Of a DNA stretch of 64,000 nt, positions 16,602-28,725 are shown one piece after another. Origin of the DNA: Pseudoruegeria sp. HB172150 (lineage in GTDB: Bacteria; Pseudomonadota; Alphaproteobacteria; Rhodobacterales; Rhodobacteraceae). The position numbers and the translations under genes were made by a program. Where the stretch lies: the NCBI RefSeq assembly GCF_013184805.1, contig NZ_JAATNG010000003.1:124001-188000 (forward strand), given 5' to 3'. The notes below the pieces were generated by a model. It saw only the letters and a program-made list of their open reading frames with translations, had not been told where the DNA came from and ran no database searches. Each line of letters opens with the position of its first letter. The first letter of the stretch is position 1.

Positions 16602-17894
16602 ATGGTCGACATCGCCACCCGTGTCTACAATCACAAATGGAAGATCGACCCGATCGTCCGTTCGCTGATCGACACCGACTTCTACAAGCTCCTGATGTGC
16701 CAGTCGGTGTTCCGCAACCGCCGCGACACCACGGTCAAGTTCTCGCTGATCAACCGCACGAAAGAGGTCCGCCTCGCCGAGCTGATCGACGAAAAGGAAC
16801 TGCGCCAGCAGCTCGACCACATCCGCTCCCTGCGCTTGACCCGCGGCGAATCCACGTGGCTGCGCGGCAATACCTTCTACGGCAAGCGCCAGATGTTCCG
16901 CTCCGACTTCATGGAATGGTTCGAGAACCTGACGCTCCCCGACTATCGCCTGGACGTGAAGGACGGCCAGTACGAGCTGACCTTCGAAGGCGCCTGGCCC
17001 GAGGTGATGCTGTGGGAAATCCCCGCCCTCGCCGTGCTCATGGAACTGCGCGGCCGCGCCGTGCTGGAAAAGATGAAGCGCTTTGAGCTGGAGGTCCTTT
17101 ACGCCCGCGGCATGACCAAGCTCTGGGAAAAGATCGAGCGCCTGCACGATCTCCCGAACCTGCGCATCGCCGATTTCGGCACCCGTCGCCGGCATTCCTT
17201 CCTCTGGCAGGACTGGGCCGTGCAGGCGATGATGGAAGGGCTGGGCGAAAAGTTCACCGGCACCTCCAACTGCCTGATCGCCATGCGCCGCGATATCGAG
17301 GCGATCGGCACCAACGCCCACGAACTCCCGATGGTCTATTCCGCCCTCGCGAATACCGACGAGGAACTGCGCGCCGCCCCCTACAGGGTGCTGGAGGACT
17401 GGCAGGAGGAACACGAGGGCAACCTGCTGATCATCCTGCCCGACACCTACGGCACCAAGGGCTTCCTCGAGAACGCCCCCGACTGGCTGACGAAGTGGAC
17501 AGGCATCCGCATCGATTCCGGCGATCCGGCGGCCGGGGCGGAAATCGCCATCGACTGGTGGAAATCGCGCGGAGAGGATCCGCGCAAGAAGCTCGTCATC
17601 TTCTCCGACGGGCTGGACGTCGACCGGATAGAGGAGCTCTATCACCAGTTCGACGGTCGGGTCCGCGTCTCCTTCGGCTGGGGCACCCTGCTCACCAACG
17701 ACTTCCGCGGCCTCGTCCCCGGCGACGAACTCGCCCCCTTCTCGCTGGTCTGCAAGGCGACCGAGGCAGAAGGCCGCCCCACGGTCAAACTCTCCGACAA
17801 CCCGAACAAGGCGATGGGCCCGGCGTCAGAGGTGGAACGCTACAAACGCATTTTCCACGTCGGTAACCAAATGGCGCTAGATGTTGTCGTTTAA
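16602..17894 (+). CDS. pncB: Nicotinate phosphoribosyltransferase
   Basis: Joins nicotinate and PRPP (with ATP hydrolysis) to nicotinate mononucleotide in the Preiss-Handler NAD salvage route. It has 430 residues, a normal length. Motifs include the N-terminal [17 protein letters not shown], the phosphorylatable-His region FGTRRRHSF and the phosphate-binding segment [15 protein letters not shown] followed by [18 protein letters not shown] precedes the ATG. It is functionally linked with pncA 4.6 kb upstream. Its 3' end directly borders the AT-rich island, so it marks the conserved edge of that insertion. Confidence 0.94.
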
Positions 17895-17907
17895 AGTCAC
17901 TTCGCCA

Positions 17908-17936
17908 TTGCCAGCGAATCGGCGCCGTGGCATAAT
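17908..17936 (+). promoter_or_regulatory. Near-consensus sigma-70 promoter of the AT-rich island
   Basis: TTGCCA (17908-17913), a 17-bp spacer and CATAAT (17931-17936) each match five of six consensus positions. It starts 14 bp after the pncB stop and lies about 78 bp before the first island gene. A small CGCGC-TTA-GCGCG hairpin lies in the leader. This is a much better match to the enteric consensus than neighbouring promoters show. Confidence 0.6.
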
Positions 17937-18013
17937 ATTATTTAGGCAAAGAGTCAATGATGAAACTGTTTCGCGCTTAGCGCGTTACCTAATCGATGGG
18001 CTGGGAGACTCAA

Positions 18014-18514
18014 ATGCTCGACAAGTGCGATAGCGATTTGGTGCAGATCGATTTTCTGGAGGCTCAGAAAGCTCAGCATGAGCATGACCTACGAAACCAT
18101 TTCGATATTTTGTCCCTCCACAAGGTTGACCGTCTGAAGCACTACGGGTTGCACTTCGCCAAGTATGTGGGGCGGCTCGCTCGTGGCAACTTGGAGGAGA
18201 AGCCATATTCCGTAACACTGACTGACGCTTATCTTGTCTGCTTGAGTGCAGCAAATACTCTGCATCAGCGTCTAGAACACAATTCTTCGCTTGATCAAAA
18301 GGAGTTTTTGGACTTCGCTTCCAGTGCAGGTCGTTTCTGTGATGCGTGCGAGAAGGTCGATCACCTCGAAGAATTCGTTCAGCTTGCACGCACATCGAAT
18401 CAAGAAGTGATGGAGTATTTGATTTCGGCATCGTCCTGCGCGGGCATTGATGTTAACGAACTTGCAAAAAATCGGCGTTTAGAACTTCGAGATCGCCACT
18501 TCTATATAAGGTGA
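18014..18514 (+). CDS. Uncharacterised helical protein, possibly MazG-like (first gene of AT-rich island)
   Basis: 166-residue, probably all-helical cytosolic protein without signal or membrane segments. The most characteristic part is HFDILSLHKVDRLKHYGLHFAKYVGRL (given in part), rich in conserved-looking His, Asp and Lys, followed by a helix LTDAYLVCLSAANTL that resembles the second acidic helix of all-alpha NTP pyrophosphohydrolases (MazG type). The full EExxE...ExxD metal motif is not clear, so the enzyme assignment is tentative. GGGAG six bases before 18014 favours this ATG over one at 17996. It ends 4 bp before the start of the dCTP-deaminase-like gene; the two are co-transcribed. Codon use is visibly AT-richer than the neighbours, suggesting transfer. 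Confidence 0.65.
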   Translation: MLDKCDSDLVQIDFLEAQKAQHEHDLRNHFDILSLHKVDRLKHYGLHFAKYVGRLARGNLEEKPYSVTLTDAYLVCLSAANTLHQRLEHNSSLDQKEFLDFASSAGRFCDACEKVDHLEEFVQLARTSNQEVMEYLISASSCAGIDVNELAKNRRLELRDRHFYIR

Positions 18515-18518
18515 TCGG

Positions 18519-19268
18519 TTGGCATTTTGGGGTAAATCTTCCTGGGAGGATCGGGGGAAAACCGAAAGTGTGGTTGTACCCTGGAACCCATTCGCCGTTG
18601 AGGAAGCAGGTTACCGACTTCGAGTCGGCAACGAGATCTTTACAAATGACAAAGAAGAAAAGTCGGCAAGGAAATTGGTAGATGGTGAACCATTCGTCGT
18701 AGGTCCAGGTCAATTCTTATATGTATTAACTGAAGAAACAGTGCACATACCTAGAACGTGCATTGGATTCATCTCGGCACGTGCTTCAACAAAATTTCAA
18801 GGCTTAGTAAACGTCTCTGGATTTCAGGTTGATCCTGGATACCATGGAAAGCTTATATTTGCATTGTTCAACGCTGGTCCTCGACACATCCACCTAAAGA
18901 GAGGTGATGACATATTCTCAATTTGGATATCTGACTTATCTGAGCCTGTACCTGTAGATTTCGAAGGAACGGATCAAATACCTAACGGCTTGAACGCAAT
19001 TCCGTCGAATATACTCAACAGAATTTCCGGAAAAGCTTTGACCGCATACCAAGTCAATGAGGCAGTTGAGAAGCTTGAGAACGAAATCAAAGATCTAAGA
19101 GAGCTCCTTGGAAAAATTAAGGACCGGTTAATATACACAGGTACAATTGCGGGCATACTCTTGGCAATAGGCTTGTTACTTTTCGGGCCAAGACTTAGAG
19201 AGCTTCTAGTTGAGAGTCCTGAGACTAATGTTTTCCAGCCGAGTTCTTCCGAAAACTCTGGGAATTAG
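18519..19268 (+). CDS. Membrane-anchored dCTP deaminase/dUTPase-like protein
   Basis: 249-residue protein. Residues about 20-155 match the trimeric Dcd/Dut fold: FAVEEAGYRLRVGNEIF corresponds to the Dcd N-terminal strand, GFISARASTKFQGLVNVSG to the R-S-S-loop region and FQVDPGYHGKLIFALFNAG to the catalytic loop. The Asp of VDPGY is kept, but the Glu that serves as general base in Dcd (LEFYN-type) is Ala here (IFALFN). A coiled coil (VNEAVEKLENEIKDLRELL) and a membrane helix (IAGILLAIGLLLFGP) follow, with a short polar tail. The TTG at 18519 is chosen: it has AAGGTGAT before it and MAFW is a usual start of such relatives. AT-rich codon use like the preceding gene. It may be a dUTPase, or a nucleotide sensor. 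Confidence 0.75.
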   Translation: MAFWGKSSWEDRGKTESVVVPWNPFAVEEAGYRLRVGNEIFTNDKEEKSARKLVDGEPFVVGPGQFLYVLTEETVHIPRTCIGFISARASTKFQGLVNVSGFQVDPGYHGKLIFALFNAGPRHIHLKRGDDIFSIWISDLSEPVPVDFEGTDQIPNGLNAIPSNILNRISGKALTAYQVNEAVEKLENEIKDLRELLGKIKDRLIYTGTIAGILLAIGLLLFGPRLRELLVESPETNVFQPSSSENSGN

Positions 19269-19326
19269 GCTGCAGCATCAGAAATACTTACTGCAAGTCG
19301 GGCGGATGCATCCTACCTAAATTAGA

Positions 19327-20460
19327 TCACTTAAAACTCGGTTTCCGAGAAAAATAATCCTCGCACTCCCCCTCCCGCAGCACATCCGCCGTGCAGCAGT
19401 GCAGCCCGCCACCGAACGCATAGGCGTCGCGCAGGTCCACTTCAACGACCTCCATCCCCAGTTTATCCATCTGCTCCGCCTGGTAGACTTCGGACTTCTC
19501 GACACAGACAGTCTTGGGGTCCAGCACCAGCACGTTCATCGACAGCCAGACCGACGAATAGCACAGCGGCGGCGGCGCGTTATGCGCGGGCTGCGCCGAA
19601 TCCACGATCTCCCAGCCGTTCCGCTCGAACATCTCGCGCTGGTCCTGCGGCAACCGGCGCTGCGGGTTGTTCAGGATCAGCCCCGGGCGCAGCGGCGTGA
19701 AAGTCGCGTCGATATGGATCGGGTAGGGATCGCCCGGGAAATTCACCGCGTGCACCCGGTGATCCGGAAAATGCCGCCGCAGCCACTCGATGCCCTTCAG
19801 GTTCGTGGTGAACCCGTGCTGCACCACAAGGTCGCGCCCGAACCGCAGCACGTCGGCGGCGTCGAACAGCGGCTCCTCCTCGGTGGTGACAAAGAACTTT
19901 TCGGCGGTCCATTTCAGTCTCTGTTCCACGCCGATCCGCTCTGACAGGTAATCGTCGCGGTAATCCGCGCCGGTCAGCCGCGGCTTCGGCGCCGCCTCGT
20001 GACGGAAATTCGGGTCTTCCTCCCAGTACCGCTGCAGCAGGGGCCGGTAGTTCAGGTATTCGAACCAGCGGCAGCGATAGGACATCGTCGCCTCAAGGAT
20101 CTCCGACCCGACCGTCAGCAGCACGTCGCGCGGCGGCATACAGCCGAACTGACTGCCAGTGTGGAAATCCGGCGTCGTCACCGGCTGCGAATGGTCGATC
20201 GGCACCGGCCGGTCCACCCGGATCCCGCGCGCCTCCAGTTGTGCCGCGAACCGGTCCAGCAACTCGTTCGCCCGGTCGATGGTCTCCTGCGGCCGCCGGC
20301 CCCATTGCCCGCGCATGTCGCTGTCCTCGGGCACTTTGGCGTCCAGCGCCGGTTCCTCGGGCGGGATGTGGCAGTCGTCGGCCCGGCCGACGATCACATG
20401 GCGCAGCGGGTCCCATTCGTTCCAGCTGCTGACGACGGTCTTCTGTACGGTATCTTTCAT
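19327..20460 (-). CDS. Amidinotransferase, glycine (arginine:glycine) amidinotransferase-like
   Basis: 377-residue enzyme of the guanidino-group-modifying superfamily that would move an amidino group from arginine to an amine acceptor such as glycine. It shows the full catalytic set of the transferase branch: Asp in the tract before GDPYPIHIDATF, His in HIDATF and the nucleophile Cys in GGGLHCCTADV. The beginning SSWNEWDPLRHVIVGRAD is also typical. The ATG at 20460 is preferred to an upstream start at 20496 because the family starts there. It lies right beside the AT-rich island and downstream of a 71-bp repeated element. The acceptor (glycine, scyllo-inosamine or another amine) cannot be told. 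Confidence 0.85.
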   Translation of the reverse strand: MKDTVQKTVVSSWNEWDPLRHVIVGRADDCHIPPEEPALDAKVPEDSDMRGQWGRRPQETIDRANELLDRFAAQLEARGIRVDRPVPIDHSQPVTTPDFHTGSQFGCMPPRDVLLTVGSEILEATMSYRCRWFEYLNYRPLLQRYWEEDPNFRHEAAPKPRLTGADYRDDYLSERIGVEQRLKWTAEKFFVTTEEEPLFDAADVLRFGRDLVVQHGFTTNLKGIEWLRRHFPDHRVHAVNFPGDPYPIHIDATFTPLRPGLILNNPQRRLPQDQREMFERNGWEIVDSAQPAHNAPPPLCYSSVWLSMNVLVLDPKTVCVEKSEVYQAEQMDKLGMEVVEVDLRDAYAFGGGLHCCTADVLREGECEDYFSRKPSFK

Positions 20461-20523
20461 GAAATCCGGATTAGAGCCGGGGCGCCGTTCCGGCAAGCGC
20501 CATAAACCCGATTACGGCGAAGC

Positions 20524-20601: not shown

Positions 20602-21585
20602 TCACCCCCCGTGCAGCCGGTCGATGATCCGCCGCACCAGCCCGATATCGTCGAAGATCTCGTGCAGATCCTCCTCCATATCCGCCACCGGCGTGGTCAG
20701 CGATCCCATCTGCAGGAAGTCCCCGCCCCGCGACAGGGCCAGGTAGAACGACCGCCCCTCGAACCCCGCCACCATCGAGCCCGTCCCCCGCTTGCCGCCT
20801 TCGCCCGTGCCGATGGCCATCAGGCTGTCCAGAAACGCCACCGGCATGAATTTCTTCGCCGCCACCGGATCGCCGGCATAGACCTCGAACGCCTTCTCGA
20901 AGCCCGAATGCCCCATCTCCACCCGCACCATCCCCCGGCTGCGGTCCCCCGCAAACAGCGACCCCAGCTTCTTGCTGACCGCCCCGTAGTCCCGCCCGAT
21001 CAGGATCCGCCCCGGCGCCTCCACCGGCACCTCGATATGAAACAGCAGCCCGCGAAACACCGTCTTGGTCCGTGACCCCCCGTCCGAGCTTCGCGACTGC
21101 CGCGTCAGCCGCGCCTCGACCATCTCGAACCCTGTGTCCCGATAGCGCCCCTTCAATTCGTCGCTGACATAGGAGTCCTGAAACGACCCCACCACGCCCA
21201 GCTTCGCCAGCGCCTCCAGCGGAAAGTCATCTCCCGCGAACCCGTCATAGCTCAGGTCGCCGATATGCTCGCAGATCGCAGGCATCACCGCGCCCTCGAC
21301 CGCCTCGTTCCACATCATCGCCTGAGCCTGCCACACCATGTAGCCGATCATCCCGCCCACCAGCGCCAGGAAGGCCCCGACGAAATAGGGCCACTCGCCA
21401 GTCCCGGCCCATATCAGGAACGCGACCACCGCCACGGTCACGGCGGCCACCACAGCCACCCACATCCACGCCTTGCGCAGCCGCGCGATCCGCCGCTCTT
21501 CCAAAACAGCCAGCGCGGGGCGAACCCGGTCCCGGTAGACCGCCGCAAACCCGCGCTCCAGCTCGCTCCGTTCCGTGAATTCCAT
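20602..21585 (-). CDS. DUF3137 domain-containing membrane protein
   Basis: 327-residue inner-membrane protein with two adjacent membrane helices near the N-terminus (WMWVAVVAAVTVAVVAFLIW and YFVGAFLALVGGMIGYMVW) and a large cytosolic domain typical of DUF3137 (VVGSFQDSYVSDELKGRY, VFRGLLFHIEVP, VYAGDPVAAKKFM). No catalytic motif is visible; the family has no established function. It lies 40 bp downstream of arfB on the same strand and may share its transcript. The palindrome of the 71-bp repeat just behind it can act as a weak terminator. Confidence 0.8.
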   Translation of the reverse strand: MEFTERSELERGFAAVYRDRVRPALAVLEERRIARLRKAWMWVAVVAAVTVAVVAFLIWAGTGEWPYFVGAFLALVGGMIGYMVWQAQAMMWNEAVEGAVMPAICEHIGDLSYDGFAGDDFPLEALAKLGVVGSFQDSYVSDELKGRYRDTGFEMVEARLTRQSRSSDGGSRTKTVFRGLLFHIEVPVEAPGRILIGRDYGAVSKKLGSLFAGDRSRGMVRVEMGHSGFEKAFEVYAGDPVAAKKFMPVAFLDSLMAIGTGEGGKRGTGSMVAGFEGRSFYLALSRGGDFLQMGSLTTPVADMEEDLHEIFDDIGLVRRIIDRLHGG

Positions 21586-26685: not shown

Positions 26686-28725
26686 ATGGACCGCGCAGCG
26701 CAGCTCCTCGGCACCGTTTTCGGATTCGACGAATTCCGCCCCGGACAGGCGGAAATCGTGCAGGCGGTCACCGAGGGCCGCAACGTCCTCGCCATCATGC
26801 CAACCGGCGGCGGCAAGTCGCTCTGCTACCAGCTTCCCGCGCTCGTGCGCGACGGGGTGACCGTCGTCATCTCCCCCCTCATCGCCCTGATGCGCGATCA
26901 GGTCCGCTCCCTGCGCGAAGCAGGGGTCGAGGCTGGCGCGCTCACCTCCGGCAACACGCAGGAGGAAACCGACGAGGTATTCCGCGCCCTCGACGAGGGC
27001 CGGCTGAAACTCCTCTACATGGCGCCCGAACGCCTCGCCTCCGGCGGAACTCAGTCTCTGTTAAGGCGGATCGGCGCGTCCCTGATCGCCGTGGACGAGG
27101 CGCATTGCGTCAGCCAGTGGGGCCACGACTTCCGCCCGGACTACCTGGCCATCGGTGAACTACGCCGCAGCCTGAACGTCCCCCTCGCCGCCTTTACCGC
27201 CACCGCGGACGAGGAAACTCGCACCGAAATGGTCACGCGCCTCTTCGATGGCACCGACCCGCAGACCTTCCTGCGCGGCTTCGACCGGCCGAACATCCAC
27301 CTCGCCTTCGAGGCCAAGAATTCCCCGCGCAAGCAGATCCTCGACTTCGCCGACGCCCGACGCGGGCAGTCCGGCATCGTCTATTGTGGCACCCGAGCCA
27401 AGACAGAGACCGTGGCGCAGGCATTGCGAGAGGCGGGGCACACCGCCTGCCATTACCACGGCGGCATGGACCCGTCCGACCGCCGCGACGTCGAAGCCCG
27501 CTTTTCCCGCGAGGACGGGCTGATCGTCGTCGCCACCGTCGCCTTTGGCATGGGCATCGACAAGCCGGACATTCGCTGGGTCGCGCACGCCGACCTGCCA
27601 AAATCCATCGAGGCCTATTATCAGGAAATCGGCCGTGCCGGCCGCGACGGCGCCCCCGCTGAAACCCTCACACTCTACGGCGCCGACGATATCCGTCTGC
27701 GCCGTACCCAGATCGACGAAAGCCTCGCGCCCGACGACCGCAAATCTGCCGATCACGCCCGCCTCAACGCGCTGCTCGGTCTGGCCGAGGCGCTGCGGTG
27801 CCGCCGCCAGACCCTTCTGAAATATTTTGGCGAAGATCCCGAGCCCTGCGGCCATTGCGACCTGTGCGACAGCCCGCCAGAAGTCTTCGACGGCACCGAA
27901 GCGGTGCGCAAGGCACTCTCCGCCATGCTGCGCACCGGCGAATCCTTCGGCGCGGGCCACCTGATCGATATCCTCACCGGCAACGTCACCGACAAGGTCC
28001 GCGCTCGAAGCCACGATCAGCTTCCGACCTTCGGCGTAGGCAAGGACCTCAGCCGCGCGCAATGGCAGGCCGTCTATCGCCAGATGATGGGTCGCGACCT
28101 AGTCCGCCCCGATGCCGCCCGTCACGGCGCCTTCCGCATGACCGCGGCCGCACGCCCGATCCTGCGCGGAGAGGAAAGCATCGAGTTGCGGCGCGATACG
28201 ATCCAGACCGCGAAATCCCGCCCCGCCGTGAAGACGCTCGTCAGCGAGGAAGACGCGCCGCTGCTGTCCGCCCTGAAGGCCAAGCGCCGCGCGCTGGCCG
28301 AAGCGGCACGCGTCCCGGCTTATGTGATCTTCACCGACCGTACCCTGATCGAAATGGCAGAGACCAAGCCGGAAACGCTGGACGATATGGCACGGATCAG
28401 TGGCGTCGGCGCCAAAAAGCTGGACCGCTACGGTGCCGAATTTCTCGCGGTGATCGCCGGACAGACGCCGGACCCGGTTCATCCGGCGCGAATGAAACTG
28501 GCCGGCCGCGAATCCGGGGACCTATATGACCGGCTGCTGCAGGCACAGGCCGATCTCGCTCGGGGCGAAGAAGGCACCGAGAAGCCTATGAGTTGTTCCG
28601 CCTCGCTCCTCGCCCGTGTCGCCTCGATGCAGCCGCGCGATCTCGGCTCACTTGCGGGCATCCTCGGCGAGCGCCGCGCGGAACGGTTCGGCCCCGCCTT
28701 CCTGACGATCCTGCAAGAGGCGTGA
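26686..28725 (+). CDS. recQ: ATP-dependent DNA helicase RecQ
   Basis: 679-residue 3'-5' DNA helicase of the RecF pathway. The helicase core has Walker A (MPTGGGKSLCYQLPAL), the DEAH-type box VDEAHCVSQWGHDFRPDY (aromatic-rich loop), SAT-like FTATAD and the motif VI region QEIGRAGRDG. The zinc-binding RQC part has CRRQTLLKYFGE followed by CGHCDLC. An HRDC domain follows (LSALKAKRRALAEAARVPAYVIFTDRTL, in part). An extra C-terminal 90 residues extend beyond the E. coli protein, as in other alphaproteobacteria. Confidence 0.95.
   Translation: MDRAAQLLGTVFGFDEFRPGQAEIVQAVTEGRNVLAIMPTGGGKSLCYQLPALVRDGVTVVISPLIALMRDQVRSLREAGVEAGALTSGNTQEETDEVFRALDEGRLKLLYMAPERLASGGTQSLLRRIGASLIAVDEAHCVSQWGHDFRPDYLAIGELRRSLNVPLAAFTATADEETRTEMVTRLFDGTDPQTFLRGFDRPNIHLAFEAKNSPRKQILDFADARRGQSGIVYCGTRAKTETVAQALREAGHTACHYHGGMDPSDRRDVEARFSREDGLIVVATVAFGMGIDKPDIRWVAHADLPKSIEAYYQEIGRAGRDGAPAETLTLYGADDIRLRRTQIDESLAPDDRKSADHARLNALLGLAEALRCRRQTLLKYFGEDPEPCGHCDLCDSPPEVFDGTEAVRKALSAMLRTGESFGAGHLIDILTGNVTDKVRARSHDQLPTFGVGKDLSRAQWQAVYRQMMGRDLVRPDAARHGAFRMTAAARPILRGEESIELRRDTIQTAKSRPAVKTLVSEEDAPLLSALKAKRRALAEAARVPAYVIFTDRTLIEMAETKPETLDDMARISGVGAKKLDRYGAEFLAVIAGQTPDPVHPARMKLAGRESGDLYDRLLQAQADLARGEEGTEKPMSCSASLLARVASMQPRDLGSLAGILGERRAERFGPAFLTILQEA

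Follow-up and report, generated by a model that had tools for sequence, protein, structure and literature searches.

Which function could join two short, AT-rich genes that lie between pncB and an amidinotransferase gene in Pseudoruegeria sp. HB172150? In the reading of open reading frames across the window (the whole 64 kb stretch of DNA analysed), pncB ends at 17894, the two genes follow, and the amidinotransferase gene (19327-20496) lies on the opposite strand. A first-pass annotation of the sequence had proposed a mobile defence or stress module, in which a small helical and perhaps MazG-like protein is paired with a membrane-anchored protein of the dCTP deaminase/dUTPase type. We take up here where the pair comes from, how it is conserved, what the two proteins resemble and which role fits them best.

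The island and its site

Gene A (17996-18514, + strand) encodes a small protein of 172 residues, predicted to be all-helical with a probable all-alpha NTP-PPase-like fold. The likelier start is an in-frame ATG at 18014, which gives 166 residues and has GGGAG 6 nt upstream (by eye). Gene B (18519-19268, + strand) has a TTG start and encodes 249 residues, with a Dcd/dUTPase-fold domain, a coiled coil and a C-terminal membrane helix predicted. The spacing between the two genes is 4 nt, as the first-pass annotation had it.

Both genes are AT-richer than the DNA on either side, which agrees with the original observation. The GC content is 0.484 for gene A and 0.436 for gene B, while the three neighbouring genes that were measured lie at 0.627-0.669 and the window mean is 64%; GC3 is 0.53 and 0.40, against 0.84-0.88 in adjacent genes. 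The five lowest-GC 500-bp windows of the whole 64 kb start at 18001-19001. The same bias is seen in other genomes: in 39 of the 42 loci where A and B occur together, their GC content is below that of the distal flanks (the exceptions are L024, L034 and L047).

The pair is accessory and foreign to the genus. Neither gene has a match in the other same-genus genomes searched (4 of 4), and gene B is matched in 4 of 147 relatives including its own genome, the other three at 25-32% identity over partial length. In the relative G003, pncB is followed about 40 bp on by a homologue of the window gene at 20602-21585, so that the window site has three additional genes, namely A, B and the one for the amidinotransferase. 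A different gene follows pncB in G002 and G004, and in G001 the contig ends there. The amidinotransferase gene occupies the same variable site as the pair, yet it has normal GC. No flanking repeats that would mark a transposon, and no transposon ends, were found around the island. The accessory character of the island is borne out by the absence from the genus, and the contrary case, core genes of the genus with normal composition, fails on this absence and on a GC content of 44-48%.

Upstream of gene A, the string TTGCCA-17-CATAAT with an extended -10 (17908-17936, + strand) agrees with the consensus at 10 of 12 positions. The near-consensus promoter described earlier is present as a string, but it is not beyond chance, since the 64 kb stretch has three promoter-like sites against 1.7 +/- 1.4 in shuffles. 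Between this site and gene A there is a perfect palindrome, CGCGCTTAGCGCG (17972-17984), with the arms CGCGCT and AGCGCG around a single T. As a special signal it was rejected, because shuffled sequences contain at least one match in 77 of 100 cases, which is chance level.

Conservation of the pair and its neighbours

Single-sequence scans gave no relatives for gene B in genome contigs and none for either gene in viral contigs. An alignment search of genome contigs with gene A found 48 loci. The hosts are mostly Alphaproteobacteria, and also include Halomonadaceae, Methylococcaceae, Pseudomonas and Marinobacter of the Gammaproteobacteria, Nitrosomonas, one Nitrospinaceae bin, three haloarchaea and one contig labelled Arthrobacter. 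In this last one (L050), gene A is nearly identical to Sphingomonas copies, which may point to a mislabelled or contaminant contig. Gene B is the adjacent next gene in 42 of the 48 loci, with a gap of -91 to +112 nt when the longest-ORF starts are used. Failure to co-occur elsewhere had been named in advance as a ground for dropping the idea of a pair, and the neighbourhood search found the opposite. Core genes precede compact pairs in other genomes too; judged by eye, these are a guaB-guaA-like pair (L031) and a large gene resembling carB (L032).

Distances between A proteins track those between B proteins (Mantel r 0.61, 0 of 2000 permutations) over 48 of 49 pairs, with L023 omitted for its truncated gene B ORF. 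In the tree, Halomonadaceae copies fall within the alphaproteobacterial group on starred forks, a placement to be taken with caution given the long branches. By tree path the nearest gene A to that of the window is in Albimonas (L027; join 94/85, not starred), where the order is A-B-UDG, followed by Nmad2 and a Thoeris-type TIR gene on the opposite strand. Plasmids searched by tblastn contain gene B in 29 records, the first nine of which (H1-H9) cover 60-82% of B, and gene A in eight; A and B are neighbours in six plasmids. Three plasmids have gene B with no gene A found, but with MazG and UDG genes present. In an even sample of 385 genomes of the class, gene A occurs in three and gene B has matches in 19, four of them above 200 bits. 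A and B are adjacent in all three of the genomes with A, and one high-scoring B was found without A. In sum, A and B are conserved as a pair, co-vary and have spread horizontally.

The pair is also the core of a larger modular cassette. Plasmid annotation, together with mapping by blast and HMM, places A and B with a holo-ACP synthase, an acyl-carrier-like protein, an XRE regulator, an ImmA/IrrE protease, a papain-like C1 peptidase, a weakly thymidylate-synthase-like protein, UDG, MazG with MazG_C, and HMUDK_hel. The small acyl-carrier-like protein has a DSL motif by eye and no Pfam match, and the ImmA/IrrE protease has a chagasin-type inhibitor domain in the copy scanned. On one plasmid (L005:2287-5965) the holo-ACP synthase, the acyl-carrier-like protein, the XRE regulator, an ImmA-chagasin fusion and the papain-like C1 peptidase stand together with Shedu adjoining; this cassette is a possible proteolytic switch.

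Three partner families, all linked to base or nucleotide modification, occur within about 7 kb of gene A, HMUDK_hel in 29 of 48 loci, DUF1643 in 8 and Nmad2 in 6, and never two together. Exactly one of the three is present in 43 loci. None is present in L023, L032, L036, L042 and L048, nor in the window; the flanks are short in L023 (1.7 kb on the right) and L042 (6.5 kb on the left, 3.9 kb on the right), so a partner may be missed there. The naive probability of such lack of overlap by chance is about 8e-9, a figure that kinship among the loci makes too small. HMUDK_hel and Nmad2 were not found in the window's own genome, and the control genomes gave no match either. A DUF1643 gene does reside elsewhere in this genome. 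A special role for it is not supported, as 22 of 41 genomes, its own included, carry one, and so do 5 of 5 in the genus.

The slot after gene A is filled differently in the six loci without gene B, three haloarchaeal ones with SLATT (DUF4231) and a ThsB-like TIR protein and three with a metallophosphatase fusion. The latter (L028:10484-12643, L033:10492-12660 and L035:10500-12653) are calcineurin-like phosphoesterase proteins of about 720 residues in place of B, and the two scanned weakly resemble thymidylate synthase (E 0.003-0.014). In haloarchaea, relatives of gene A (L014, L015, L039, L041 and L043) all have HMUDK_hel nearby. In L015, L039, L041 and L043, where gene B is missing, SLATT (DUF4231) and TIR genes and one for a zinc-ribbon protein occur as well; in L014 their place is taken by the ACP/ImmA/C1 cassette.

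These neighbourhoods bear on a first rival account of the island, ordinary horizontally acquired metabolic cargo whose two genes have no joint function. The window copy would suit it, having no partner-family neighbour and sharing its site with an amidinotransferase gene, which in G003 is not adjacent to pncB. This account is already strained by the adjacency of A and B in 42 of 48 loci and by their co-variation over many families, and we regard it as highly improbable.

Gene A is found in phages as well. With the L051 member as query, nine phage records were matched; eight of them belong to four Acinetobacter phages (GenBank/RefSeq duplicates) and one is a weak jumbo-phage match. The window gene A as query gave no match among phage records, and alignment-based scans of viral contigs gave 0 loci for gene A and two for gene B. 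None of the nine records is among the phages matched by gene B. The three regions viewed are of Straboviridae. In T4-like Acinetobacter phages (L101:6004-6597, L102:5992-6582 and L103:4992-5576) the homologue of gene A lies in the early region beside endolysin and topoisomerase genes.

Folds and conserved residues

The Dcd/dUTPase-like jelly-roll domain of gene B covers residues about 16-145 (18564-18953, + strand), as placed by sequence profiles and a structure model. Gene B scores 55.6 bits against the Pfam DCD family PF22769 (cut-off 27, E 8.6e-15), 69.2 bits against the dCTP deaminase family TIGR02274, below its curated cut-off of 92.8, and 19.2 bits against the trimeric dUTPase family PF00692, below its cut-off of 22. 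The model has a Dcd-type jelly roll (Foldseek E about 1e-12) and then one continuous helix over residues 176-231. Within this helix the coiled-coil-like part (19044-19130, + strand, residues about 176-204) was split by eye from the predicted membrane segment (19134-19199, + strand, residues about 206-227), whose limits were set by eye on hydropathy. By hydropathy a C-terminal hydrophobic membrane segment is found in 51 of 56 gene B rows. Profile, model and hydropathy together agree with the architecture first proposed, a Dcd/Dut-like domain joined to a coiled coil and a membrane helix.

The identity of gene B as a dCTP deaminase enzyme, in contrast, has to be given up. The catalytic Glu of the deaminase is, we take it, E138 of E. 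coli Dcd, and E138 mutants are named in PDB titles among the structure matches of gene B. The aligned residue is A115 in the window (codon 18861-18863, + strand), and in the 49 copies linked to gene A it is Ser in 31, Ala in 17 and Thr in one. Among all 56 gene B rows, Glu is found at this position only in L003, which is not linked to gene A. With the catalytic Glu absent from 49 of 49 linked copies, gene B should not be a dCTP deaminase; alignment and model describe it as a Dcd/dUTPase fold that has lost the deaminase Glu and gained a predicted coiled coil and membrane helix.

Other positions of the domain are changed or kept. Position 89, aligned with a Ser of Dcd that presumably serves the phosphate site, is Ala in 37 of 56 rows. 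Position 93, aligned with an Arg that we take to be R115 of Dcd, is Phe in 34 and Arg in two of 56 rows, and never Arg in A-linked copies. Lys92 and Asn98 are present in all 49 A-linked copies. Asp105, presumably the catalytic Asp of the dUTPase I/VDxxY-G motif, is kept in 47 of the 49 linked copies and in 54 of 56 overall, so gene B might still hydrolyse dUTP. The closest solved structure, archaeal 8y1w from T. pacificus, is titled dUTPase and is also without the Glu, which leaves room for a dUTPase activity of gene B.

The model of gene A is all-helical (pLDDT 91.6), in line with the small helical protein first described. None of the 46 members examined has a Pfam match better than E 0.003, and all 46 match phrog_19333, a family of unknown function. 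The best PDB structure matches are the dUTPase 5myf and 5mil (E 0.06 and 0.2, prob 0.99 and 0.95, TM 0.45 and 0.48). Trypanosoma and Leishmania dUTPases come further down the PDB list, in which no match has E < 0.001. We take 5mil to be a dUTPase, and 5myf, 5mil and the Trypanosoma and Leishmania dUTPases to be of the dimeric, all-alpha type. Among the predicted viral structures of BFVD, three matches have E < 0.001, and these include the homologue from Acinetobacter phage Acj9; many of the later matches are named MazG, NTP-PPase-like or dUTPase (TM 0.42-0.62, prob up to 1.00, E 0.03 and worse). The sole PDB profile match is the nucleotide pyrophosphohydrolase 5ie9 (E 0.042), the ELGD helix of which aligns on T74-x-x-D77. 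Against such a fold, the gene A profile reaches 3% probability when compared with the cassette's own MazG proteins. The dimeric-dUTPase family PF08761 has no match in 115 genomes of the class. The earlier guess that gene A is MazG-like is supported by this fold comparison, in which the individual matches are weak.

Seventeen residues of gene A are invariant in 57 rows, a count that excludes L001 because it duplicates the window: Q24, Q27, H30, D31, H35, H49, L52, H53, K56, Y57, D77, N87, E119, D122, H123, E125 and R160. When five cellular and four phage proteins are aligned, 16 columns are invariant, and L52, E125 and R160 are not included. The metal-binding acids of MazG and the all-alpha NTP-PPases are arranged as ExxE ... 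ExxD. Gene A has no invariant ExxE in the 57 rows, the aligned ExxD reads T74xxD77, and an invariant E119xxD122 stands in a later helix and may be a relocated metal motif. The modelled structure indicates that gene A probably has an all-alpha NTP-pyrophosphatase fold (MazG/dimeric-dUTPase-like) with a different active site and invariant residues of its own. It is not a typical MazG despite the probably related fold.

The invariant residues weigh on a second account, a toxin-antitoxin-like addiction or abortive module, in which B would be a membrane toxin silenced by A, and A alone in a phage would be an antidote. Two small genes with A first and mostly tight coupling, the C-terminal membrane segment of most B proteins and phages that have A without B all speak for it. 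However, 17 residues invariant over 57 rows fit an enzyme better than an antidote, six of 48 loci have A but no B, and the three plasmid loci with B have MazG and UDG with no A found. We consider such a module unlikely.

A third account makes the pair an accessory of the nucleotide pool or of base modification. Gene A would be a specialised NTP pyrophosphohydrolase and gene B a membrane-anchored dUTPase, and together they would hold down the level of dUTP or a modified dNTP, or produce the latter, on behalf of mobile elements with HMUDK, UDG, MazG and thymidylate-synthase-like genes. The title of 8y1w, the retained Asp105, the many linked genes for nucleotide or DNA-base enzymes and the T4-like phages with A and no B are consistent with it. 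The substitutions at positions 89 and 93 of gene B argue against it, membrane anchoring is odd for a pool enzyme, and in three of 48 loci A is followed instead by SLATT and TIR, which are effector-type domains. This account is possible, and we hold it with low confidence.

Defence context, proposed role and known systems

Neither the A nor the B protein matches any model of PADLOC-DB 2.0.0 at E <= 1. From 169 neighbour ORFs of gene A loci, 150 were drawn at random and six of the longest left out; in the resulting 144, a set with no matched control, PADLOC names HamA, HamB, LmuA, KwaB, GajB and AbiEii at least once each among the best 25 of 78 families. As a control, 44 of 45 window ORFs were scanned, one being left out as a likely false antisense ORF. 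The names obtained, among the best 25 of 50 families, are mostly those of helicase models, DpdF and GajB included, together with an unchecked PsyrT, and no defence gene was identified among these 44. A Dpd system in the window was rejected, the DpdF match being a helicase gene (26686-28725, RecQ-type by eye). This model matches 14 of 14 ordinary control genomes, and since DpdF and GajB also turn up in the control, the helicase names are not trusted. At individual loci, a caspase gene is present in the plasmid A+B locus L006, and Shedu lies near the plasmid locus L005, which has B without A, and near the A-only match L105, which has no annotated B.

The explanation we favour, with about even confidence, is that a mobile conflict module centred on nucleotides, most likely directed against phages, has its minimal form in A and B, with B as a putative membrane-bound nucleotide sensor or effector. 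Mobility, linkage to base modification, the effector-type SLATT and TIR domains where B would otherwise stand and the defence genes close to some loci point to this explanation; the solitary window copy with no partner-family neighbour, and the blindness of PADLOC to the pair, count against defence. The mobile, nucleotide-linked defence or stress module of the first-pass annotation is thereby kept as a hypothesis in its mobility, its pairing and its nucleotide linkage, but the deaminase name was wrong, as the residue is gone.

For the mechanism of such a conflict module we infer the following from anatomy and gene order, with B as sensor or effector and A as the enzyme that sets the ligand. 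Gene B would form a Dcd-like trimer at the membrane and bind a pyrimidine nucleotide without deaminating it. Gene A would hydrolyse or modify this nucleotide and so set or clear the ligand of B. Should a phage alter the dNTP pool, as modified pyrimidines would, B would switch its membrane part upon binding the ligand, and growth would be slowed or the infection stopped. Specificity of recognition would come from the HMUDK_hel, DUF1643 or Nmad2 proteins; the copy in the window would act alone or with the DUF1643 gene elsewhere in the genome. Put in its most specific form, which we offer as speculative, a Dcd-type trimer deprived of deaminase activity would have become a nucleotide-gated membrane immune device; a protein built on a repurposed MazG/dimeric-dUTPase fold would set the ligand, the mutually exclusive HMUDK_hel, DUF1643 and Nmad2 partners would tune the device to phage-modified pyrimidines, and the B-less form in haloarchaea would use SLATT and TIR. 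Relatives of both unrelated dUTPase folds would then be joined in one two-gene system spread across bacteria. If the conflict-module reading holds, the pair is a compact two-gene addition to nucleotide-centred immunity and gives a deaminase-less dCTP deaminase fold a role at the membrane, and the HMUDK_hel, DUF1643 and Nmad2 genes find a common setting as partners that exclude one another around a single core. Because no locus has two of the three partners, the question of recognition is directly testable by exchange of partners and phages.

No description of the A+B pair was found in the openly licensed PMC literature searched. The nearest published material is that of DefensePredictor, in which 5-hydroxymethyluracil kinase, thymidylate synthase and metallophosphatase domains were validated in defence linked to nucleotide modification (PMC13092281). 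The predicted list of that paper has MazG, MazG-C, dUTPase and nucleotide-modification-associated domains, and UDG appears in the legend of the figure concerned; the pair was not found in the passages covered, and overlap with its figures or supplements is possible (PMC13092281).

At the level of single proteins, gene B shares with Dcd and Dcd:dUTPase (PF22769, TIGR02274) and with 8y1w the fold, most of the DCD profile and a VDPG-Y/F/W-x-G motif with its conserved Asp. It differs from Dcd and Dcd:dUTPase in lacking the deaminase Glu (0 of 49 linked copies), in the invariant Lys92 and Asn98, in the added coiled coil and membrane helix and in scoring below the TIGR02274 cut-off. Gene A resembles MazG and dimeric dUTPase in its predicted fold, and its D77...N87 helix aligns with the ELGD...N helix of the MazG 5ie9; it differs in having T74xxD77 and no invariant ExxE, and in the invariant H30, D31, H35, H49, H53, K56, Y57, H123 and E125. 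Anti-phage dCTP deaminase systems exist, and the A+B pair is like them in its Dcd-type fold and its accessory genes. It is unlike them in matching no PADLOC model, in the missing deaminase residue, in the membrane anchor of B and in having gene A as a partner.
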